IMG/VR virus record: IMGVR_UViG_3300021180_000146
Span: 1-33,513 of that record
DNA: 33,513 nucleotides
Strand: one strand, 5' to 3'
From: a virus
Part shown: piece after piece, positions 5,176 to 27,493 of the stretch
Numbering within the stretch: position 1 is the stretch's first letter
Layout of the letters: every line of letters begins with the position of its first letter
Position numbers and translations under genes: made by a program
The notes under the pieces: model-generated
The model's input: only the letters and a program-made list of their open reading frames with translations
What the model was told of the DNA's origin: nothing
Databases searched by the model: none

Positions 5176-5346
5176 TTAGATCGGCTTGCCTTTTGGTTCT
5201 TCCTTTTCGGCCTTCTCGATTTTCAGAGCGCGTTGCACTTGCGGGAGCTGGAAATATTTAACCCGTTCGTCGTACATCCGCTGAGCGGTTTCAGGATCGC
5301 GGATCATCTCCGCTACCGTCATGCCGGGTTTTTTCTCGTCGCTCAC
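5176..5346 (-). CDS. Small late protein, unknown (56 aa)
   Basis: GTG at 5346 overlaps the TGA stop of the large upstream gene (GTGA), typical of translational coupling. The product starts MSDEKKPGMTVAEMIRDPET and ends in a charged, Lys/Glu-rich tail. It is predicted mostly helical, with no membrane segment and no recognised family. The start overlap, the composition and the terminator just downstream support a real gene although it is short and begins with GTG. It is the last member of the late operon before the terminator. Confidence 0.65.
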   Translation of the reverse strand: MSDEKKPGMTVAEMIRDPETAQRMYDERVKYFQLPQVQRALKIEKAEKEEPKGKPI

Positions 5347-8300
5347 TGGCTTCCAATCTGGGATATAAGATGCTGCCTTATACCCTCATAGGCCTTGGCC
5401 TTCACCTGCTCAGGCTTATTGTACCCTGCAGCCAGGTCTTTTGCGGCATTTTCCAGAATGTCATCCACTGGACCGCGTACGGCGCTCAGCTTGTTATAGG
5501 CTTCCATGGCGCGGGTCGCCTGCTCAGCGATTTTGGCATTTTCATCTACCTTGATCGACTGGCCTTCTACTTTCGCGAGCTGGGCTGCTTTGCCCTTGGT
5601 CGCTACAGCGCCAAACGTACGGCGCTCCTTGGCAATCTGCTGCTTAATGTAGGAAGAAATATCGGCTTTGTCTAGCGCCAGAGAGTGGATTTCCTGATTC
5701 GCGCCGAACAAACCACCTTGCTCCACAGTCTTATTGCCGCTATTTTTAACGAACCGGGAAAGCTCGGCTACGGTGTCATTGTTGACTCTGCGGCCTTTGG
5801 CTTCCTGCTTATCGATCAGCTTAAGAATAGCTTCCTGCTGGGCTGGATCGTCCGTCGCTGCGCCGATGGCCACCCCGCGTGACTCGCTGATGTCTCCGGA
5901 CTCGATCTTATTAAGAATCGAGTCATCCAATCGCGCCAGCGCGATGCCGTCCTGCACCTTGGCTTGTCCCAAAGGAAGATCGCGCGCCTGGGCGTCGGCT
6001 ACCGATTTGATGTTTGCCTGTTTGAAGAATCGGGCCGCGTCGACGCCGGTTCCATGGCCTTCGGAAATATTTACCTCTGCGCCGATCGCGCGGGCCTCTT
6101 CCGCGCTGCCTGCCTTGATTTTCATGATGGGGACGGCAGGTTCTCCAGTGCGCCGCGCCAACTCAAAACGGTGATGGCCATTGACCACATACGTTTTCTT
6201 GTCGGCTGGGTCTTCCCATGTGAGCAGGACACCGGCCTTGTTGGGGTCATATTTCTTGCTGTCTTTGAGCGCGTTGGTTACGCCTGATTCATCAACTCCG
6301 CTCTTGTATTGGAAACGGCTGGGGTCGGTGCGCAGTTCTTTTGTATCCACCATGGCCAGCTCTCCCGGATTGACGCGAGAGACGGCTGTAGTCTTGATCT
6401 CCGGCGGGCGCGGTGGCTTCGGGGTAGGCGCGGGCAGATTCTCTGCTGTCGCTTGGTCCGGCTGCATCCATGGCGAACCGCTGGCCCTCGTAATCTCGTA
6501 ATCTATGCCCTGCTGAATCTTCTCTCGCTCTGCTGGATCGGCAGTCCGCACCAATTCATTCCGCAATTCGCTGATGCGAGCTGCAGTGTGTGACGTGGGA
6601 TCAAGCTTCGCCACCAAGGGCCTGTCGTCTCCACCTTCCTGCACCTGTCGAATGGTTGGGGCGGCTGTCTGCTCTGGAGTTTTCGGCTGTGCCGGCGGGG
6701 CGTCCATTTCCACTTGCGGACGTCGCATCGGAACCACGGACGGATTGTCTCCGGCGCGCAGTTGTAGTTTCCCTTGCGGCGGCGTTGGGGCCTCTGGCTC
6801 AGCCGCGCTGGTCAAGAATTGGACACGGCCTGTTTCAGGATCAACACGGCGAGCCGCGCGAAATACTCCCCCATTATCGGCGGTTGCGGTCAGCGGAGAT
6901 TCACCCAAAGGAACCGGCCTTGCTGGTGGCGTAGTTCCTTGGGGCAGTAGCAGTCCCATGCGTTGCGCTCTGGTGGTAGCCGCTATTGGTGGCGGAACCG
7001 CCGTTACGGGGCTTGCGCCTGGCTGTGGCGTAATGATCGGGGCTTTATTGAGCGCTCCGCGAATCATCGGCGCGACTTTTGCAGGCGGTGGAAGGATTTC
7101 AGGCGTATCAAGCTTATTCCCAAAATTCACCGCGCGAGCTGCACCGGTTCTAAATGGTGTACTGTTGACGACTTTTCCAGCCATCTTGAAGGGTGAATTC
7201 CAGACATCCATTCCGTCAAAAAATCCCTTGTTTTCGTGCTGAGCAAGCCTCCTGAGTATTCCAGTCCGAGCGCTGATCAAGTTCGACGCGCGGTCATTAA
7301 GTGGCGCCGCTTCTGGGACTTCATTATTGACGGCATCTTTTATGCCGCTATAGATACTCTGCATGGCGGCTGCTGCGCTGGCTTCTACCGGATCGGTGGA
7401 TTTGAATGCTCCCAGATCAGAGGCTACCTTGCCGATTTCTTTCTTGAGATTGTTCATCTCGAACGGCGTTCCCTTTGTTGGTCCATACTCCGTATGCAGA
7501 GCCTCGCGGAGATTTTCAAGGCGCGTGATCATGGCCTGATTGCCGGTTTTTCGCGCCGCGGTGACTGCCTCATCAATCCCGCTGTCGATGATGGGCGCGG
7601 TGTCAATAACAGCATTGGCGTTGGGGTGGTTCTGCAGGACTGAATCGGTTGCTTTCGACACCTGGGCAATTCTGGCTTCTGTCTTTTCCGCCAATCCCTT
7701 AGTGGTTCCAGCGACGATGCCCTCATCTGCAATGCCGCTGGCCGGCTGGCGCTCAAACTGCATATCGGTGAGAGTTTTTCCCAGAGGCTTACGGATAAGA
7801 GGCTTAACGATGGACTGAGCTACTTTAGACCTGGCATCGTTAAAAGAGTCAACCGCGTTGGAAGCTGTGTTTACAACTGCCCTGCTCATTCCAGGAACGC
7901 GCGGGACGACGTATTTAAGTCCTGATTCAATCGCCTTAGGAGCAAGCAAATTAACGGCGAGTCCTCCTGCGCCTTCCAGTGGATCCTTGCCGATTTCTTC
8001 CCCTGTTTGTCCGGCGAATGGGCCGATTCCGGGAATTGATCCTGCAGCCCTGTGGCCCAAGCTCTCTATGCCGGTGGTCTGGTCAGCCTTTTTCTGCTCT
8101 GCGAGCATTGGATTGCCGATGAGTCGATTAATTCCAAGGCTGAGCCCTCCGCCATGTTGCACCGCTGCAACTTCATCTGGAGTTTCCGCTGGATCGGTGA
8201 CGGCGTGATAGACCTGGCCGGGAAGAGCCAGCAGGCCTTTAGCTTTAGCGATAGCGCCTTTTCCGATTCGCGCTACACCTTCATAAGGTGTGCCTACGGT

Positions 8301-8600
8301 GGGATCGGGTTGCTGATTCGACGGTCCAAGCTTGTAACCGTTCTTCAGGGCCTCCGCTACCTGATCATTGGGCAGCAGGCCATCTTGCCCGTTGGGGTCA
8401 GTGACGTGTACCCCGGCCTTGCCGCCCTGCTGAAGCACTTTCTGGTAGTGCTCTGGAGATACGCCGATGGAGTATTGCTGGCTCTTTACCGCGTCGGCCA
8501 GTTGCTCCACAGGAATGCTTCCGGGCGTACCTGTGCTGTCAGTCACGAAGACACTATTACCATCAGCGGAGAATGCCGGAATTAGATTAGGGCTGCTCAT
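5343..8600 (-). CDS. Large virion-associated protein with ParB-like domain (1085 aa)
   Basis: Residues 17-49 and 62-92 are two copies of a short repeat (VTD-x-G-x-x-G-x-(I/L)-P-x-(E/D)-Q, then A(D/E)A(V/L)K). A Gly/Ala-rich segment (about 110-240) contains weakly amphipathic helices, then a helical region and a long Pro-rich linker (about 520-745). Residues about 750-860 form a ParB/sulfiredoxin-like domain with VVNGHHRFELAR at 805-816. The C-terminal 220 residues are helical. ParB-like domains in large phage proteins are known from polyvalent proteins, proposed to be ejected with DNA. Its place at the end of the structural operon after two internal-protein-like genes fits an ejection protein. 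Start ATG 8600 abuts the previous stop. Confidence 0.85.
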   Translation of the reverse strand: MSSPNLIPAFSADGNSVFVTDSTGTPGSIPVEQLADAVKSQQYSIGVSPEHYQKVLQQGGKAGVHVTDPNGQDGLLPNDQVAEALKNGYKLGPSNQQPDPTVGTPYEGVARIGKGAIAKAKGLLALPGQVYHAVTDPAETPDEVAAVQHGGGLSLGINRLIGNPMLAEQKKADQTTGIESLGHRAAGSIPGIGPFAGQTGEEIGKDPLEGAGGLAVNLLAPKAIESGLKYVVPRVPGMSRAVVNTASNAVDSFNDARSKVAQSIVKPLIRKPLGKTLTDMQFERQPASGIADEGIVAGTTKGLAEKTEARIAQVSKATDSVLQNHPNANAVIDTAPIIDSGIDEAVTAARKTGNQAMITRLENLREALHTEYGPTKGTPFEMNNLKKEIGKVASDLGAFKSTDPVEASAAAAMQSIYSGIKDAVNNEVPEAAPLNDRASNLISARTGILRRLAQHENKGFFDGMDVWNSPFKMAGKVVNSTPFRTGAARAVNFGNKLDTPEILPPPAKVAPMIRGALNKAPIITPQPGASPVTAVPPPIAATTRAQRMGLLLPQGTTPPARPVPLGESPLTATADNGGVFRAARRVDPETGRVQFLTSAAEPEAPTPPQGKLQLRAGDNPSVVPMRRPQVEMDAPPAQPKTPEQTAAPTIRQVQEGGDDRPLVAKLDPTSHTAARISELRNELVRTADPAEREKIQQGIDYEITRASGSPWMQPDQATAENLPAPTPKPPRPPEIKTTAVSRVNPGELAMVDTKELRTDPSRFQYKSGVDESGVTNALKDSKKYDPNKAGVLLTWEDPADKKTYVVNGHHRFELARRTGEPAVPIMKIKAGSAEEARAIGAEVNISEGHGTGVDAARFFKQANIKSVADAQARDLPLGQAKVQDGIALARLDDSILNKIESGDISESRGVAIGAATDDPAQQEAILKLIDKQEAKGRRVNNDTVAELSRFVKNSGNKTVEQGGLFGANQEIHSLALDKADISSYIKQQIAKERRTFGAVATKGKAAQLAKVEGQSIKVDENAKIAEQATRAMEAYNKLSAVRGPVDDILENAAKDLAAGYNKPEQVKAKAYEGIRQHLISQIGSQ

Positions 8601-10969: not shown

Positions 10970-11365
10970 TTAGACCTTTCTCCAAAAGTCGGTCCACTCT
11001 GGTTTCTTCCACCCTAATAACCGCATCATCCGGCGACCGAAAGATTTAACGAGCTGGGGAGGACACCAAAAATGACCATCCTCGATTCCCTTTTCCTTCA
11101 ACTCCTGACGCATCGCCTCGTGCAATTGCTTCAATGCCGCAAACCTGACAGCGGGCGTGTCCCACGTGTGATCTACGAAGCCATAGAGTTCCACAGTGAT
11201 CCGCGCCGCCACTCCCATGCGAGCAGTGTTGTTTTCGTCTGTAACTACCTTTTTGGCGATTATGTTGTTACTGTCAAGCTCCGGTAGTTCATAGTCGAAA
11301 CCCTGAGCCTCAAAAATCTTGCGTATCTGCTCGATGTCCCCATTTTCCAAGCGCCTGATGTTCAC
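10970..11365 (-). CDS. GNAT-like acetyltransferase-fold protein (131 aa)
   Basis: A 131-aa protein starting MNIRRLENGDIEQIRKIFEA, the usual first strand and helix of the GNAT fold, followed by strands with MGVAARITVELYGFVD, a helix with FAALKQLHEAMRQELKEKG and a C-terminal WKKPEWTDFWRKV. The acetyl-CoA pyrophosphate loop (Q/R-x-x-G-x-G/A) is not obvious; its place is taken by DTPAVRFAAL. It may therefore bind without catalysis or be divergent. Similar small GNAT proteins sit among structural genes of podoviruses. Its start abuts the stop of the preceding gene. Confidence 0.7.
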   Translation of the reverse strand: MNIRRLENGDIEQIRKIFEAQGFDYELPELDSNNIIAKKVVTDENNTARMGVAARITVELYGFVDHTWDTPAVRFAALKQLHEAMRQELKEKGIEDGHFWCPPQLVKSFGRRMMRLLGWKKPEWTDFWRKV

Positions 11366-15341: not shown

Positions 15342-16121
15342 TTAACGGCGTCCTCTGGAGCTACGGCGCGAGTACGGAATGCGCCGGAAGTTCTCGCGCT
15401 GCAATTTGCGCTGAGTCTGAATGCACATCTGCTCGATGTACTTATTTGCCCTGGCATCCAGCTTGTCCGCGGCTTCGCCGTCCACGCTGGCAGAGAAAAG
15501 AGCGGCCGCTTTATAGCCGACTGCGTTTTCACAATTCAGAATGAGAAGCTGCTGAGCGCCGCCACCCGCTAGCGTCAGCTTGGGCAAATAGGGGATGTAA
15601 CGAAACTTGATGTCGAGCGAAAGCAACGCTCCGACCATATAAACCGCATCACTGCGCCAGTCCCATTCTGGCGAGTAGCTTGTTTTTACGCGGGACGGTA
15701 GCCCCTCTTTGGAGGCATGCATTTCCCTGAATGACATCATCGCTCCAGACTGACGTTGCCAGAGCAGCAAAGGCAATCTCAGGTCTGCTGGAAGCGTGAA
15801 GCCGGGTTGATTCTGAACTCCATCAAAATAGCCGGTGAATCCAAGCGATACTTCCGCGCCGGGGTCAACGGTCGCAACGGGTGGAATGCCGGTTACTGTG
15901 GCCTGCTTCGCAAACGTTTCCACGCCGTTATTTGTGAGTTCGGTCTGTACCTCGTCATAAGCGGACTGGATGATTACCAGTGTGCCTGGCCTGTCATCCG
16001 TGAAAACGTCACCGACAATATTTCCGGTGACAGGATCTACTCCCGCATCGGCCATTGCTGTACGTGCGACGTTCAGGACTGTTTCTACAGTCGGATATGG
16101 GCTGGTAGCTACAAAAGGCAT
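15342..16121 (-). CDS. Putative head-tail adaptor (gp4/gp11-like, 259 aa)
   Basis: A 259-aa protein. The first 65 residues are helical (TVETVLNVARTAMADAGVDP, then IIQSAYDEVQTELTNNGVET). A central region contains LPADLRLPLLLWQRQ, and the Arg-rich C-terminus ends RRSSRGRR. Similar architecture is common in podovirus head-to-tail connecting proteins (P22 gp4-type adaptors are helical with a variable C-terminal arm). It lies immediately before the small beta protein and tail hub genes. The call rests on order and general pattern, not a specific motif. Confidence 0.65.
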   Translation of the reverse strand: MPFVATSPYPTVETVLNVARTAMADAGVDPVTGNIVGDVFTDDRPGTLVIIQSAYDEVQTELTNNGVETFAKQATVTGIPPVATVDPGAEVSLGFTGYFDGVQNQPGFTLPADLRLPLLLWQRQSGAMMSFREMHASKEGLPSRVKTSYSPEWDWRSDAVYMVGALLSLDIKFRYIPYLPKLTLAGGGAQQLLILNCENAVGYKAAALFSASVDGEAADKLDARANKYIEQMCIQTQRKLQRENFRRIPYSRRSSRGRR

Positions 16122-16167: not shown

Positions 16168-16527
16168 ATGAAGAAATTACTTATTGCCGCTATTTTCCTT
16201 GTATCTGTCTTCTCTTTTGGAAAAGCTAAGACCGAAAATCTGGAATGGAAAACCGGAACACTCCTGAATCAAAACTCTGATAGCGACTGCCGCGTAAGAG
16301 ACGGCAATAGCATTTGTCACACAATCACTTTCTACGAAATTGACACTGGCGAGATGATTTACACCTTCAAGCGCTCAGCGCCGCGCCGCGCAAAGAGCTT
16401 GGACATCACAGTGAATGCCCCCATCAAATATGCGTTCTCCGGCGAAAAGAGTTTCATCCAGGATGAGCATGGCCAATCGCATGAAGTTTCTCTTTCCCAG
16501 AAAGCCTTGAAATCACCGACTCATTGA
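16168..16527 (+). CDS. Plus-strand moron: secreted beta protein (119 aa)
   Basis: The only plus-strand gene inside the minus-strand late block. The start at ATG 16168 puts a signal peptide (MKKLLIAAIFLVSVFSFGKA|KT) at the N-terminus; an earlier in-frame start at 16135 would hide it. The mature part (LEWKTGTLLNQNSDSDC, TITFYEIDTGEMIYTFKR, VNAPIKYAFSGEKSFIQDEHG) is beta-rich with two Cys and resembles a family of small secreted acidobacterial proteins that I recall but cannot check here. A TACAAT (16152-16157) could be a -10, but no good -35 accompanies it. Its last 74 bases overlap the end of the opposing gene. Likely a moron expressed independently in the lysogen. Confidence 0.72.
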   Translation: MKKLLIAAIFLVSVFSFGKAKTENLEWKTGTLLNQNSDSDCRVRDGNSICHTITFYEIDTGEMIYTFKRSAPRRAKSLDITVNAPIKYAFSGEKSFIQDEHGQSHEVSLSQKALKSPTH

Positions 16528-17152
16528 TAGGCTTTTTCAATCCCGGCCAAGACGTCTGGCTGAAAACCTTAAGCATGTCGGATGAACTACCGGGAACGGT
16601 GAAGAAGATAGTGGCACTCATGCAATCAACTTCTATTGTGCCGGGTGCGCTCACGGCTTTTTCGGTGACATTCCCAATAAAATTGCCTCCATTCACATTG
16701 GCCACGGTCCATGTAGTCCCCCAAAGATCGGCAGGGCCACCGAAGGTAAAATTGGTTGAAGTTGGCGTCATGTTCCCAACTCCAGTCCCCTTGTTTACGC
16801 CTACCAAGGTTCCCGAAGGGGCTTCTATCCTGACAGTATTCCAGGCACCTGCATTCGTGGTGGTGGGCGTCAATGCTGTTACGTTGAGCTGAACTCCCAC
16901 GATAGTTGCGTTGGTAGGTATGCTGAAAATAATTTGACCGCGCAGGTCATCTGTCGTAGCCGTACCGGGAAGTATGGTTGCTAATACGCCATCGCAAGCG
17001 GTGATATTTAATGGGTTGGTCCATGCAACTGTGCCGCCTCCAGCAGTATTGCTAGTACCTGTAGCGGTGTTTGCTAAAACCGGCCCTTGACTGCCAGCAA
17101 ACGCTAATACAGTCAAGAACAGAAGAGAAAATGACTTAAGAAATCTTTTCAT
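16454..17152 (-). CDS. Secreted beta-sandwich protein, fibre-like (232 aa)
   Basis: The start at ATG 17152 lies one base after the previous stop and gives a signal peptide: MKRFLK, a hydrophobic core SFSLLFLTVLAFAG and a cleavage site VLA|NT at 27. Residues about 40-186 match the motif order seen in many phage and bacterial surface proteins: VAWTNPLNI, IPTNATIVGVQLNV, FGGPADLWG, and VANVNGGNF leading to a final strand. The last 25 residues (208-232) lie antisense to the opposing gene and look unlike the domain, as if an original stop had been lost. It pairs with the fibre-like gene upstream. Envelope location is predicted; a virion role is uncertain. Confidence 0.75.
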   Translation of the reverse strand: MKRFLKSFSLLFLTVLAFAGSQGPVLANTATGTSNTAGGGTVAWTNPLNITACDGVLATILPGTATTDDLRGQIIFSIPTNATIVGVQLNVTALTPTTTNAGAWNTVRIEAPSGTLVGVNKGTGVGNMTPTSTNFTFGGPADLWGTTWTVANVNGGNFIGNVTEKAVSAPGTIEVDCMSATIFFTVPGSSSDMLKVFSQTSWPGLKKPINESVISRLSGKEKLHAIGHAHPG

Positions 17153-17153
17153 T

Positions 17154-18452
17154 TTAATGGCCCTGATCCACGGCAACGACATCCCATTTAGTGTCCAAAG
17201 CATTCCAGATACAGCCGATATAGTCCGTCTTGGTTGCTGTTGTGGCTGTTGGAGCTACTATGCTTGTGGAGAAACGATAGGTGGCGTTGAAGCTGTAGGT
17301 TTGAGCGTTAGTTGTTTTGAGACGGATAATCAACTTCTGGCCATCGGTGGGCGTTCCTGTTGGAGCGGCGATAGTTATTGTCCCTGCGACTCCAGTCATA
17401 TTCATCACCGTCTCGTCTGAATTGTCGCTGTCTGGGGTGAAAGTCGTGGAGGTGGAAAGGGTGACAATGCGCGGATCGTTGCGTTTGTTCTGGAGGCGCT
17501 CTGTGCCGCTATCTGTGCCGGTGGTGGAGGGACTAGACAGGGCGCATCCTGTGGTTAAGCAGACGCTTCCACTTCCCGATGTTCCATTTGAAAGATCGGA
17601 CGCGGCCAGAGATGAATCAACAAAGTTGGTTCCATTGCCACGCAAAACATGACCAGAGCCAGCGCCGCCATTCACACGGTAGCCGGTTGCGATGTTAAAG
17701 ACTCCACCATCAGTCAGAAATGCTTCAATCGTGTCCACTGACCCGGTACGTTTCGCCCATTCGCACTGCCACCCGCTTCCGTCGCCACAATAAGTTCTGT
17801 TTGCATGAGGGGTTCCCAAGCCGCCTACGACTCTAAAATCTCCAGTTCCAGCCGTTGCTCCAAGTCCTGTGCTCGCTGTAACACTGAGAGAATCGCTCAC
17901 GGATAGAGTGTTGCCGTCGTCGGTTACGTCCGCGTTGCCAGTAACTCCAGTCGCGCCGTTTGTGTATTTAACAAGCGCATTGGTAGTGCCTGTCCCTGTG
18001 TTGATGGTTCCAGCGGGGATATTCGATCCGGTGACGGTTCCAGTAGCGGAAATGTTGCCGCCGGCTGAAATATTGCCGGTTGTCGTTACGCTCGCGAAGT
18101 TGGCCACGCTTCCAGGTACTAGAGGCGCGGCGAACGGGTAGCATGTCGTACTGGTGATTTGCGGAGAGGTCGCGGTGTAGCAGTAATTTCCAGCCGGGAC
18201 AAAGAACTGAAAATATCCATAACCGTCCGTGGTCAGCGTCGTGATTGGATGGGTAAGCGCCGCATCTGAATAGATCGTGATGGTAGGCGAGCATGGTGCA
18301 CCTGTTGCACCCGCATTGCAGGCGGTAATCAGGGCTCCGGCAATCGGCTGGCCTTGACCATTGGCCACGCTGCCCGAGAACGGCGAACCCTGAGAAAAGG
18401 CCGTACCCATAGAGAGTACGGCCATAGTGATCAGGAGGAGAATTTTACGCAT
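17154..18452 (-). CDS. Tail-fibre-like protein with signal peptide (432 aa)
   Basis: Residues 1-20 form a textbook Sec signal (MRKILLLITMAVLSMGTAFS|QG). Residues about 24-115 resemble a carboxypeptidase-regulatory/CNA-B-like sandwich (GQPIAGALITAC...PCSPTITIYSD...TTDGYGYFQFFVPAGNYCY). A Thr/Gly/Asn-rich repetitive stalk spans about 118-205, and a C-terminal domain (322-432) has the signature of phage fibre tips (NKRNDPRIVTL, GTPTDGQKLIIRL, TATKTDYIGCIWNALDTKWDV). Fibre tips normally act in the cytoplasmically assembled virion, so an export signal is odd. It is upstream of, and nearly overlapping, another signal-peptide gene. Could be an exported adhesin made from fibre parts. Confidence 0.8.
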   Translation of the reverse strand: MRKILLLITMAVLSMGTAFSQGSPFSGSVANGQGQPIAGALITACNAGATGAPCSPTITIYSDAALTHPITTLTTDGYGYFQFFVPAGNYCYTATSPQITSTTCYPFAAPLVPGSVANFASVTTTGNISAGGNISATGTVTGSNIPAGTINTGTGTTNALVKYTNGATGVTGNADVTDDGNTLSVSDSLSVTASTGLGATAGTGDFRVVGGLGTPHANRTYCGDGSGWQCEWAKRTGSVDTIEAFLTDGGVFNIATGYRVNGGAGSGHVLRGNGTNFVDSSLAASDLSNGTSGSGSVCLTTGCALSSPSTTGTDSGTERLQNKRNDPRIVTLSTSTTFTPDSDNSDETVMNMTGVAGTITIAAPTGTPTDGQKLIIRLKTTNAQTYSFNATYRFSTSIVAPTATTATKTDYIGCIWNALDTKWDVVAVDQGH

Positions 18453-20340: not shown

Positions 20341-21585
20341 TTAGTAGCCCGCTGGTACGGGGATGTTGTTGATGAACACGCCTGCAAGGACGTTATCCAT
20401 GCCGATGTTGAAGCCGATATACAGATAGAACAGCAGGTTGGTCAGCAATCCACCATCAGGGGCGATCTGCGGGAAGATGGTCTGGCCTCCTACTTCGTAA
20501 TGATCGATCTTCTGGAACTCGGTACGGAACCAGTGAGACAGGACGAATCCGTCGATTCTTCCGGGGGTCTGGTGCAGTCCCACAATGACCGGACGCTGCG
20601 CAAAAGTGGACGGCGGCTCTTCCATCGCCATGTCTGGAGACGAATTACCCTTTTGCTGCTGGTAAATGTTCTGGGTGATGGAGATTCCAACGTTTTCCCA
20701 CGCTGCAATCGTGTCCAGGCCCATGTAATATTCCAGCTTCTCTTCCTTCGGTGCCTTGATGCCCAGCGCCCTTTGAATTGCGGCGATGGAGCGGCGCGCG
20801 ATGGCCGGAGTCAGTGGAAGTCCCTGAGCGTTGACGTTTGGAGTTGAAAGACGGCCGGGGTAAGAAGTACGCGGCACGCCCATGACCGAACCTACGTTCG
20901 CATTAACGTGATACGCCTTGGTTCCGGCGACACTGGTTCCAGCCTGCCCAGAGGATCCGCGAATCAACAGAACGTCGCCTACTTGCAGGTTAGGGATAGG
21001 TGCAAGGAAGTTGATAAGTTTGTTGTTCTGGTCTGTGGTGTAGATGGTCCCGGTGCCACGGAAAACGCCGCCGCCGATTTGCGACCAGGCATCAATCTGG
21101 CTTCCATCGGCAAACATGCTGGGGTTGTTAACTCCAACAACAGAACCCGCAATGGAGACAACCGTGTCAAGAGTCCCTGAGCCATCGGTGTTGATTGCAG
21201 CCTCGATGCGCTCACGGAACTGCTTCATGGCCAGCTTTTGAGTCTTAACGACGAAGTTCTCAATGGCCTGCTGGCTGCTTTTGGTGGTGATCTCAGTCAG
21301 TTTGGTGTACTGATGAGCCTGAGAAAACACTACCGGAACAAGAGTGCCAGCGTCGGAAGTCGGTGCAATACCGGTTCCGAGAGAACCGCCGTTAATATCT
21401 GTCTGCTGGAATTTGGCTGCGCCCACCAAGATCATGGGGACGCGCATGGGGCGGTAGGACTGTGAATCTTCGTCCGTCCGCTCCTCGAATTTAGAGTAGA
21501 GAGTATCGTCAGTCTGAAAGAATTCATCCGCTTTGGGGCGGACTTTTTCATGCATCAGACCGATTGCCTGAGACACTGAGCCCAT
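20341..21585 (-). CDS. Major capsid (coat) protein (414 aa)
   Basis: The ATG at 21585 has GAGG six bases upstream and is preferred to an in-frame GTG at 21597. The 414-aa protein has the features of P22-type/HK97-fold coat proteins that sit directly after the scaffold gene: an N-terminal helix (SVSQAIGLMHEKVRPKADEF), a charged loop region (YSKFEERTDEDSQSYRPMRVP), a spine-helix-like stretch (QAIENFVVKTQKLAMKQFRERIEAAIN) and a beta-rich C-terminal half ending FINNIPVPAGY. Order (portal, scaffold, coat) and length match the family. It has its own long leader and a terminator downstream, consistent with high expression. Confidence 0.85.
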   Translation of the reverse strand: MGSVSQAIGLMHEKVRPKADEFFQTDDTLYSKFEERTDEDSQSYRPMRVPMILVGAAKFQQTDINGGSLGTGIAPTSDAGTLVPVVFSQAHQYTKLTEITTKSSQQAIENFVVKTQKLAMKQFRERIEAAINTDGSGTLDTVVSIAGSVVGVNNPSMFADGSQIDAWSQIGGGVFRGTGTIYTTDQNNKLINFLAPIPNLQVGDVLLIRGSSGQAGTSVAGTKAYHVNANVGSVMGVPRTSYPGRLSTPNVNAQGLPLTPAIARRSIAAIQRALGIKAPKEEKLEYYMGLDTIAAWENVGISITQNIYQQQKGNSSPDMAMEEPPSTFAQRPVIVGLHQTPGRIDGFVLSHWFRTEFQKIDHYEVGGQTIFPQIAPDGGLLTNLLFYLYIGFNIGMDNVLAGVFINNIPVPAGY

Positions 21586-21783
21586 GGCAAGCCTCACAAA
21601 AATGGACTCGCTGTGGTTGCGCGTTCCCCGGCTCAGAGGCGGGACAGCATGCGCTTTGCTGTGTTGGGAACCTTTAGCGGCGTGGTACGGGTATTGCTTT
21701 CGTGCGATTTGTCCTGCTCAGGTTTTCTCGGTGGCCCGAGCAGCGGTGTCCTATCCGCTCAGCAGTGACAAGAACTTTTTGGT
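21586..21783 (-). promoter_or_regulatory. Structured non-coding leader of the capsid gene
   Basis: A 198-base gap, the longest in the minus-strand late block, with no credible reading frame. On either strand CTGCTC (21714-21719) can pair with GAGCAG (21738-21743), or CTCGG (21727-21731) with CCGAG (21736-21740). These share bases, so they exclude each other. No convincing -35/-10 pair was found. It may hold a phage-specific promoter, an RNA-processing site or a translational control element for capsid. Confidence 0.4.
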
Positions 21784-23280
21784 TTACGCTTCTACTGTGT
21801 AAACCTTGCGGCCATCTTTCAACACGCGACGGCCTTTCAAAATCATTTGTTCGTAGTCCAGACCGATCTTTCTTCCTTCAGCTTCGGTCAGACGGCGTGA
21901 AATCTCAGAAGCGGCGGGCGGTTTATCCATCTTGATCCAGCCCTGGCCGGGATTAGTGTTCTTCGCCCCGCCTTTATCGCCCTTGTCGCCATTTTTTCCG
22001 CCTCCGGCAAACTTCGTATCGCCGGTCAGAATGCGGTAGGCGCTGTCCACGATTCCGGCCTTGCCGTTCTCGCCTTTGAGCGCAGCGGCCACGCGGGATT
22101 TAAGGAATCTCACGAGCCCATCACCGTCTTTTGCTTTTGAGTAGGCAGCGATGGTGTCCCGGAAGTCGCCGGCTGCATGCATTTTTTTGGAAAGGTTCTT
22201 GAGGGCGATATTCACAACAATTTCCCGGCGCTCCGGGCTGATCGTTTTACTTTTCGCCTTCAATATCGCGTCGAGCTGCTGATTGATCAGGCCATCGCGG
22301 TAGGTGTTATACGAGAAAGAAACTTCGCGATTGAACTGAGCCATTTCACGTTGCTGATGCTGCAGATTCTTCGCGGCGTCTGGATCATTTCCACTTTTGT
22401 TCTTGTCCGGAATTTTGGCCGCTGCCATCGTGTCAAGACTGGTGGTCCAGTCGTTGAAATTCTTGTTGATGCCCAGAAGTTTTTGAACAATCGACTTGGC
22501 GCGCGGATCGTCCACCATTTCAAGCAGGGTTTGCAGATGCTCGCGCTCGATATAGAGCGCCTGCGGGACTTTTTGCTCCTGCAGCTCGGCAATCACCATG
22601 CCTGCATAAAATTTGGTGTACCCTTCCGGGGATTTCTCCGCGAATGTGTTCACAAAATGCGGAACCATGGCGCTGAATTCTTCCGGGTACTGCTCGGCCA
22701 GATTCTTCACGAGCGCCGGGTCTTTGGCTTCCCACTTTGCATCCAGATCGTGATAGAACTTGATCTCTTCGCCCAGAGTTTTCAGGCCGTTGACGCCGCC
22801 CAAGTTCTTGTCGATCGCGCCTTTCAGTTTCAGAACGTCATTCACGCCGTTCGGGAAATCCTGCTTCAGCTTAAAGAGGTCTTTCCGCATGTTCATCTCT
22901 GAAATGACGATGCCGCGGACTCGCTTGTACAGGGCGGGATTCTTGGCCTTCAGTTCGTCCAGGTGCTTTGTGACATCGGCATGCATCCGGGGCTTGTCAT
23001 TGGGGTTGTGCTCGCTGCCTTCCAGCTCGGTTTCGTCACCCTCTGCGCCCGCTGCATGTGCGCCGTCGCCCTCGCCAGCACCTTCACCGCCGCCGTCATC
23101 TTCAAGTTCTGCGTTTTCCTCGCCGCCTCCGGCTTCTTCGCCGCCATCGCCAAGATCCAGAGCATCAAGGACGTTGCCAGCGGAGAATCCACCTAACCCG
23201 GTATCTCCTGCGGCAAAAAACATCCCAAGGAAGCTCATGAACCAATTAGCGAACGGGAAAAAACTGTGAATCTTAAACAT
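21784..23280 (-). CDS. Putative scaffolding protein (498 aa)
   Basis: A 498-aa protein immediately upstream of coat. The first 35 residues contain a hydrophobic, Phe/Gly-rich stretch. Residues about 40-95 are extremely acidic and Gly/Ala-rich (runs of Glu and Asp), and the rest is charged and mostly helical, ending in a basic C-terminus (KGRRVLKDGRKVYTVEA). An acidic, low-complexity N-terminus with a helical body and a basic coat-binding end is what P22-like scaffolds look like. Its first 8 bases overlap the end of the 64-aa gene, and CAGGAGAG precedes its ATG. No protease motif is visible. Confidence 0.78.
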   Translation of the reverse strand: MFKIHSFFPFANWFMSFLGMFFAAGDTGLGGFSAGNVLDALDLGDGGEEAGGGEENAELEDDGGGEGAGEGDGAHAAGAEGDETELEGSEHNPNDKPRMHADVTKHLDELKAKNPALYKRVRGIVISEMNMRKDLFKLKQDFPNGVNDVLKLKGAIDKNLGGVNGLKTLGEEIKFYHDLDAKWEAKDPALVKNLAEQYPEEFSAMVPHFVNTFAEKSPEGYTKFYAGMVIAELQEQKVPQALYIEREHLQTLLEMVDDPRAKSIVQKLLGINKNFNDWTTSLDTMAAAKIPDKNKSGNDPDAAKNLQHQQREMAQFNREVSFSYNTYRDGLINQQLDAILKAKSKTISPERREIVVNIALKNLSKKMHAAGDFRDTIAAYSKAKDGDGLVRFLKSRVAAALKGENGKAGIVDSAYRILTGDTKFAGGGKNGDKGDKGGAKNTNPGQGWIKMDKPPAASEISRRLTEAEGRKIGLDYEQMILKGRRVLKDGRKVYTVEA

Positions 23281-26689: not shown

Positions 26690-27493
26690 TTAGAAGCTGG
26701 GAGCTACGAGCTTATAGCCTTGAAACACGGCGTGAATTGCGCCTGCGGAAGCGTTTGCGGTAGTGCAATGCGCAATCGGCAAGCCTGCAGTACCAGTAAT
26801 GAACGTGGTGCCACCGGTTGAGGAATCTGTAGTGGTTCCAGCGGTCAGCGTGGTGTTTGCAGCCGTGAACTCAGTGCCGGAAGTGATGCCCAAGGACCAT
26901 CCACCGGTGCAGGTGCCAATGGTGACGTTCACGCGCGCCGTTGCGGAGATGACCACAGAGCGAGCGGGAATGTTCACAGCGCCAAGGTTGGTATTGGCAG
27001 CGCCGGTTGATAGAGTCACCTGGCCAGTGTCAATCCTCCACCAAACTTGTCCGCCACCTGAAGCGGCAGCGTCGTTGATGGCTTCCTGAATGCCCTGATC
27101 TCCAGACTGCAGCAAGTCACCCGGGCCATGCGAGTTGGTAAGGCCGGTGAATGTCACAGAGCAGGTGCCGAGCGCCTGGCCGGTGAACAAGCATCCTGAA
27201 ACAGCGGAAGGGGTAGCGGTTTCCTGATTTGCTCCCACCCCGATTAATACCGGTGTGTTGGTGGAGAAAACCTGAAAGGTGCGACCGTTCGGCAGTTCCA
27301 CGCCTCCGATTGTCTGAAGCTGGAAGGTCTGAGTACCGTTGCCAGTGGGTGAACCGGGGGAAATCTGCACTTTCCACTGCGCGTAGTCAACGGAGTTGTA
27401 ATCACCGTTGCGCCATGGAGCGTTCTGAGCCTGAGCACAGAAAGGCAGCAGGATCATGAACGCGAGAGCAAAGATCAAATTGCGAAATTTCAT
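26690..27493 (-). CDS. Spike-like protein with signal peptide (267 aa)
   Basis: AAGGAG lies about 10 bases before the ATG at 27493. Residues 1-22 form a Sec signal (MKFRNLIFALAFMILLPFCA, cleavage AQA|QN). Residues about 130-165 (GDQGIQEAINDAAASGGG, then QVWW) resemble the entry of right-handed beta-helix tailspikes and pectate lyases, where AI-x2-A...GG-x-V is the usual opening. The rest is Thr/Gly/Ala-rich with three Cys and short strands. It is too short for a full spike and has no catalytic acid cluster that I can identify. It is a second exported fibre- or spike-like protein in the late block, here between terminase and portal. Confidence 0.72.
   Translation of the reverse strand: MKFRNLIFALAFMILLPFCAQAQNAPWRNGDYNSVDYAQWKVQISPGSPTGNGTQTFQLQTIGGVELPNGRTFQVFSTNTPVLIGVGANQETATPSAVSGCLFTGQALGTCSVTFTGLTNSHGPGDLLQSGDQGIQEAINDAAASGGGQVWWRIDTGQVTLSTGAANTNLGAVNIPARSVVISATARVNVTIGTCTGGWSLGITSGTEFTAANTTLTAGTTTDSSTGGTTFITGTAGLPIAHCTTANASAGAIHAVFQGYKLVAPSF

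Follow-up and report, generated by a model that had tools for sequence, protein, structure and literature searches.

Late spike- and fibre-like proteins of a podovirus-like contig carry predicted Sec signal peptides and may be exported, possibly to join the virion afterwards

Why would a tailed phage place export signals on proteins that look like its spikes or fibres? To our knowledge, tailed phages both produce their spikes and attach them within the cytoplasm. The two neighbouring late genes studied here, P0001 and P0002, depart from the rule that such proteins are made without an export signal, and in the P0001 family the signal is not only present but conserved. A first-pass annotation of this DNA had already placed both genes and described their leaders; the coordinates and leaders are as it gave them, and the export signals are now supported by a Sec/SPI scorer and by conservation among homologues. 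Its fibre signatures likewise hold up, since the C-terminus of P0001 matches phrog_3030 (E 7e-11) and the tail fibre protein of a phage, and the P0002 domain recurs in unsignalled tail proteins. It knew of no established system of this kind, and in the open-access papers that we searched we also found no precedent for Sec-exported phage spikes.

The window, meaning the whole 33.5-kb stretch analysed here, is a podovirus-like contig from an IMG/VR virus record, with a late operon on the minus strand and an integrase-like gene on the plus strand. The late operon runs in the order TerS, TerL, portal, scaffold, major capsid protein (MCP), two genes, P0001, P0002, a tail-adaptor-like gene, a nozzle-like gene of 1005 aa, and ejection-type proteins, several of these assignments being made by position and by reading of the sequences (Table 1). 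P0001 and P0002 share a slot between the MCP with its two following genes and the adaptor-like gene, as do the corresponding genes of many relatives; this spike slot lies in the late structural cluster and adjoins the tail genes, as is usual for receptor-binding spikes and fibres. No tRNA genes were found in the window, no plasmid match was found for it, and neither the fibre core nor the plus-strand gene gave a match when genomes were scanned with it. From the parallel with the cultured Tunturi phages described below, our guess is that the host belongs to the Acidobacteriota.

Other genes of the window have features of their own. A lone plus-strand gene within the minus-strand late operon (16168-16527, +) overlaps P0002 with its 3' end; it is moron-like, has a 34% homologue at a similar location in the related locus L041, and its product has its own signal peptide (MKKLLIAAIFLVSVFSFGKA). 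The putative scaffold protein (21784-23280) has a hydrophobic N-terminal stretch (MFKIHSFFPFANWFMSFLGMFFAAG) that is not a typical signal peptide, and the genes at the same position in L023-L026, L041, and L042 likewise begin hydrophobic. A late protein of 1085 aa (5343-8600), perhaps an ejected protein, has a ParB-like domain in its C-terminal third (phrog_21/phrog_1033) and zero Cys. A small late protein (10970-11365) starts with VNIRRLENGDIEQIRKIFEAQG and is GNAT acetyltransferase-like by appearance; similar-looking genes are found in L027 and L033.

Table 1. Positions in the window of the signal-bearing late genes, their parts, and two landmark genes
Feature	Position	Strand	Remark
P0001, 432 aa	17154..18452	-	signal peptide, spike N-domain, fibre body, and phrog_3030 C-terminal module
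P0001 signal peptide, residues 1-20	18393..18452	-	predicted cleavage AFS/QG
P0001 mature N-domain, residues 21-112	18117..18392	-	Cys pairs 44/53 and 91/104
P0001 central body, residues 125-320	17493..18080	-	~81% identical to L002 fibre
P0001 C-terminal module, residues 308-430	17163..17531	-	phrog_3030 / tail fibre
P0002, 232 aa	16454..17152	-	signal peptide and phage tail-protein domain
P0002 signal peptide, residues 1-27	17072..17152	-	predicted cleavage VLA/NT; AGS/QG possible too
P0002 mature beta domain	16559..17071	-	
Third signal-bearing late gene, 267 aa	26690..27493	-	between TerL and portal
Third gene signal peptide	27428..27493	-	predicted cleavage AQA/QN
Major capsid protein (MCP)	20341..21597	-	by position and homology to relatives; query for finding relatives
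Tail-adaptor-like gene after spike slot	15342..16121	-	by position

In P0001, the leader (MRKILLLITMAVLSMGTAFS, then QG) precedes an N-domain with a beta-sandwich fold that resembles the N-domains of phage tail spikes; the AlphaFold models have a mean pLDDT of 76-77. Residues 318-428 are 45% identical to the tail fibre protein of Methylophilaceae phage P19250A. The mature protein has nine Cys, of which one, in the C-terminal module, is without a neighbour. An internal start that would yield a signal-less P0001 was considered and rejected: the first 90 or so codons of the mature part contain no ATG and a single GTG, which has no obvious ribosome-binding site. The P0002 leader (MKRFLKSFSLLFLTVLAFAGSQGPVLA, then NT) has an ambiguous cleavage site (AFA/GS, AGS/QG, or VLA/NT). 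In many phage contigs its domain occurs unsignalled, either as part of a tail protein or next to one, and P0002 has two Cys, whereas most of these unsignalled homologues have none or one. Foldseek searches with P0002 gave weak matches only, some to carbohydrate-binding modules, and were set aside. Beyond the genes of the first-pass annotation, a third late gene has a leader (MKFRNLIFALAFMILLPFCAQA, then QN) that scores highest among the three. About a dozen relatives of this gene also have a signal and two homologues do not; most signalled members have about four mature Cys, compared with one in both unsignalled homologues.

Several lines of evidence indicate that the signals are real. With a crude, home-made Sec/SPI scorer standing in for SignalP, 3 of the 24 late genes of the window pass compared with 0.2% of composition-shuffled proteins, and shuffles of the first 30 residues match the observed score in 0.3% (P0001) and 0.1% (P0002) of cases. 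The scorer also flagged scaffold- or nozzle-like genes in L034, L041, L042, and L062, which we regard as false positives. The best evidence for predicted signals is comparative. Among 22 non-redundant homologues of the P0001 N-domain, pairwise identity is 14% over positions -24 to -4 and 69% over +1 to +60. Leader hydrophobicity is nevertheless kept in the same homologues, positions -3 and -1 are mostly small, with A or G at -1, and +1 is invariably Q, a residue that is partly built in because the set was picked by a motif starting at +1. When the motif was widened to leave out the Q (R[KQR]D[DE]), essentially the same set was recovered, with Q present. This pattern suggests that the signal properties have been kept by selection. 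Moreover, a separate scan with the mature domain found 51 loci, 48 of them with a match reaching the mature N-terminus, and all 48 have a hydrophobic leader-like segment before the domain that ends in A or G (in L149, in Q itself); several of these were missed by the scorer through its charge rule and were judged by eye, and gene starts in the metagenomic loci were assigned by us.

Thus, with n-, h-, and c-regions, small residues at -3 and -1, a poorly conserved leader, and a conserved mature start, the proteins have the hallmarks of Sec/SPI substrates. Because identity is low in the leader and high from the mature start, with small -3/-1 residues and Q at +1, the N-terminal segments have the pattern predicted for a cleavable signal and not for a conserved docking helix. 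An AxA/Q-like site, and with it Gln at +1, is found in 26 of 32 non-redundant signal-bearing proteins compared with 8 of 32 in a control window. Gln at +1 is the Q-rule of Bacteroidetes and has been described as specific to them (PMC10367356, PMC5837995); here it is an observation and not evidence of a Bacteroidetes host. A general habit of phages whose hosts use Gln at +1 was rejected as an explanation, as the annotated spikes of crAss001 are unsignalled and the stretches of B40-8, FCL-2, and crAss001 that were examined hold no signalled spike.

The cysteine content of these proteins points to the compartment in which they fold. Mature signal-bearing proteins have a median of 1.78% Cys compared with 0.67% in other genes of the same strand (53 versus 272, P = 3e-21), and the Cys count is even in 37 of 45 complete N-domain proteins compared with 69 of 144 genes that have two or more Cys and no signal (P = 3e-5), both P values being too small because related proteins are not independent and relatedness inflates the statistics. 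The N-domain has two invariant Cys where it is signalled and no pair in unsignalled phage spikes, and unsignalled homologues of the three domains are mostly without Cys pairs. The putative ejection proteins of the window have zero Cys. The fibres of Tunturi 3, a podovirus without the signals, are poor in Cys, but some small proteins of Tunturi 5 are not. From the conserved Cys pairs, we strongly infer that the exported spikes would contain disulfides.

Mapping the spike slot across relatives, we found that the signal recurs on different spikes. Scans based on the MCP yielded 18 and then 80 related loci, which form a lineage of soil phages, and in many of these a spike or fibre of ~460-1590 aa lies between the MCP with its two following genes and the adaptor, with a signal at its start. 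A large spike family has the mature start QG[ST]RKDD[IV]V, and the P0001 N-domain is 38-47% identical to it, including the two cysteines. In L041, the closest relative by MCP (81%), another spike occupies the slot; it too is signalled, and its N-domain is 45% identical to that of P0001. In the subgroup L027-L034, which has a related MCP, the slot is empty and no signal-bearing spike was found, so their receptor-binding proteins must be located elsewhere. Identity is 0.67 in the N-domain compared with 0.29 in the C-terminal 300 aa (153 pairs); a conserved N-terminus with a divergent C-terminus is the usual pattern of receptor-binding proteins. The N-domain also matches tail spikes of cultured phages in weak tblastn hits (E 0.002-0.6) and viral spike models in Foldseek, and pectate-lyase-like bodies occur among the signal-bearing proteins. 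A siphovirus-like contig (L002), with a Phage-tail_3 tail protein and an NlpC/P60-like gene, encodes a fibre with the P0001 body (81% identity over the core alignment) joined to another N-terminal region and another C-terminus; despite its different N-domain, this fibre begins with a signal (MKKLFSVLAFVCVVIGLSINAQA, then QN). When the P0001 N-terminus or Tunturi 1 gp12 served as the single query sequence, IMG/VR scans gave no matches.

The same trait is found in cultured phages. Tunturi 1 and Tunturi 2 are podophages of Tunturiibacter, and their hosts are Acidobacteriota (PMC11924767). Directly after its tail adaptor, Tunturi 1, which infects Tunturiibacter psychrotolerans X5P2, encodes five signalled proteins of 149-1190 aa, one of them annotated as a tail spike, and Tunturi 2 has the same signalled set. 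Five of six consecutive genes in this region of Tunturi 1 (L018, 10371-23028) are signal-bearing, one product having CHB_HEX_C and beta-helix domains, and all long spike-like proteins after the adaptor of this plaque-forming phage are signalled. In contrast, the spike cluster of Tunturi 3, a phage of the same host strain, has zero signals, so the trait follows the phage and is not imposed by the host; the examined fibre genes of Tunturi 4 and 5 are likewise without signals. Since tblastn detected no match between the window genes and Tunturi 1, the trait extends beyond close relatives. The main text of the Tunturi paper (PMC11924767) mentions neither signal peptides, structural proteins, nor mass spectrometry.

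We therefore consider how signalled spikes might be built into a virion. We propose, giving the proposal an even chance, that P0001, P0002, and the product of the third gene form a receptor-binding spike or fibre set that is exported by Sec, folded in the periplasm, and docked on tails at lysis. Each would be synthesized as a preprotein, pass through the Sec system of the host, and be cleaved by signal peptidase I, in most cases with Gln as the new N-terminal residue. The spikes would then fold in the periplasm, where their conserved cysteine pairs would form disulfides, with the cytoplasm as the assembly site of capsids and tails. When lysis proteins break the envelope, the freed spikes would dock on tails through the N-domain just past the cleavage site. 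Export of the signal-bearing spikes is what we infer strongly, and Sec export with periplasmic folding is the simplest reading; docking at lysis is suggested through domain homology and modularity only. A conserved N-domain with divergent C-termini would be expected if the N-domain fits a conserved virion partner. Tail spikes of P22 can attach to spike-less particles in vitro, and late docking is therefore physically plausible. However, attachment of spikes after lysis would be sensitive to dilution. More tentatively, and at slightly less than an even chance, we suggest that podovirus- and siphovirus-like phages alike use a two-compartment build, in which cytoplasmic heads and tails and periplasmic, disulfide-bonded Sec spikes are joined only at lysis.

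The exported proteins could instead never enter the virion, being late secreted enzymes or adhesins derived from spikes that reach the periplasm and then, at lysis, the medium, where they might break down exopolysaccharide, cover the receptors on debris, or obstruct competitors. This is the main rival, less likely than docking but quite possible. The signals, the cysteine pattern, and Q at +1 require export only, several signalled genes often stand in tandem, and the pectate-lyase-like bodies would also fit a secreted enzyme. The Tat-exported glycan enzyme WceF, of tailspike fold, offers a host precedent for export (PMC7949094). However, the most conserved part is the N-domain, which is seen on virion spikes, whereas the putative active bodies vary, and if the proteins were only secreted, neither the window phage nor Tunturi 1 would have any obvious receptor-binding spike. 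Among the signal-bearing proteins that were scanned, Pfam gave no match to an autotransporter, to T9SS, or to any other domain for outer-membrane secretion or anchoring. Since the residue predicted at +1 is also not Cys, no path is apparent by which the proteins could pass from the periplasm to the cell surface before lysis. Because no such domain was seen and the conserved N-domain is spike-like, we prefer docking at lysis to surface display before it. The first-pass annotation supposed that export would take the proteins out of the particle and saw adhesins on the host surface as one possible role; yet the proteins retain the N-domain of virion spikes and have the modular build of receptor-binding proteins.

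Two other explanations question either the signals themselves or their function. The first-pass annotation had paired export signals on fibre proteins with the alternative of a virion anchor, and only the former is supported. Although a hydrophobic peg is conceivable for some long spikes, an uncleaved docking helix or membrane anchor is very improbable, as the hydrophobic segment is the least conserved one, a docking-type domain and conservation itself start right where cleavage is predicted, -1 stays A/G and +1 stays Q, cysteine pairs accompany the signal, and such a helix is missing from the homologues found on other phages' spikes. Equally, fibre genes are recombination hot spots and the signals look like ordinary bacterial leaders, as would be expected of chance or of host leaders that were captured recently and do nothing for the phage; yet the signals recur in dozens of contigs that have diverged from one another, on three gene families of separate origin, and in two types of virion, and the cysteines change along with them, making this most improbable.

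If Sec-exported disulfide spikes exist, either the virion is completed after lysis or phage spikes have been repurposed as secreted proteins. The proposed export predicts pyroglutamate N-termini and disulfides on the spikes and matters for the host range of phages that infect a dominant soil phylum. It would also explain how receptor-binding proteins of this type might escape notice or be annotated wrongly as proteins secreted by the host. The question can be tested directly in culture, since Tunturi 1 and 2 have signals and Tunturi 3, on the same host strain, has none.

Known systems share some of these features and lack others. PblA and PblB of the Streptococcus prophage SM1 are reportedly phage tail-type proteins that act on the bacterial surface; they are said to have no signal peptide and to reach the surface through lysis. 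Spikes or fibres of Jilinvirus ECO1230-10, ECOO78, Enterobacter phage Arya, and Marinomonas phage P12026 resemble the window family in having the N-domain at the start, a variable body, and a place in the tail cluster, but unlike it they have neither a signal peptide nor the cysteine pair of the N-domain. Tunturi 1 and 2 are also podophages with signalled proteins clustered after the tail adaptor, but their genes have no tblastn match to those of the window. Genes of Porphyromonas gingivalis phages have signals with Gln at +1, as here (PMC10367356, PMC5837995), but these Q-rule genes have no assigned function and were not identified as spikes. WceF of Pantoea stewartii is an exported tailspike fold, as proposed here, but in contrast to the window genes it is encoded by a host exopolysaccharide gene, with a Tat signal and outside any phage operon (PMC7949094).
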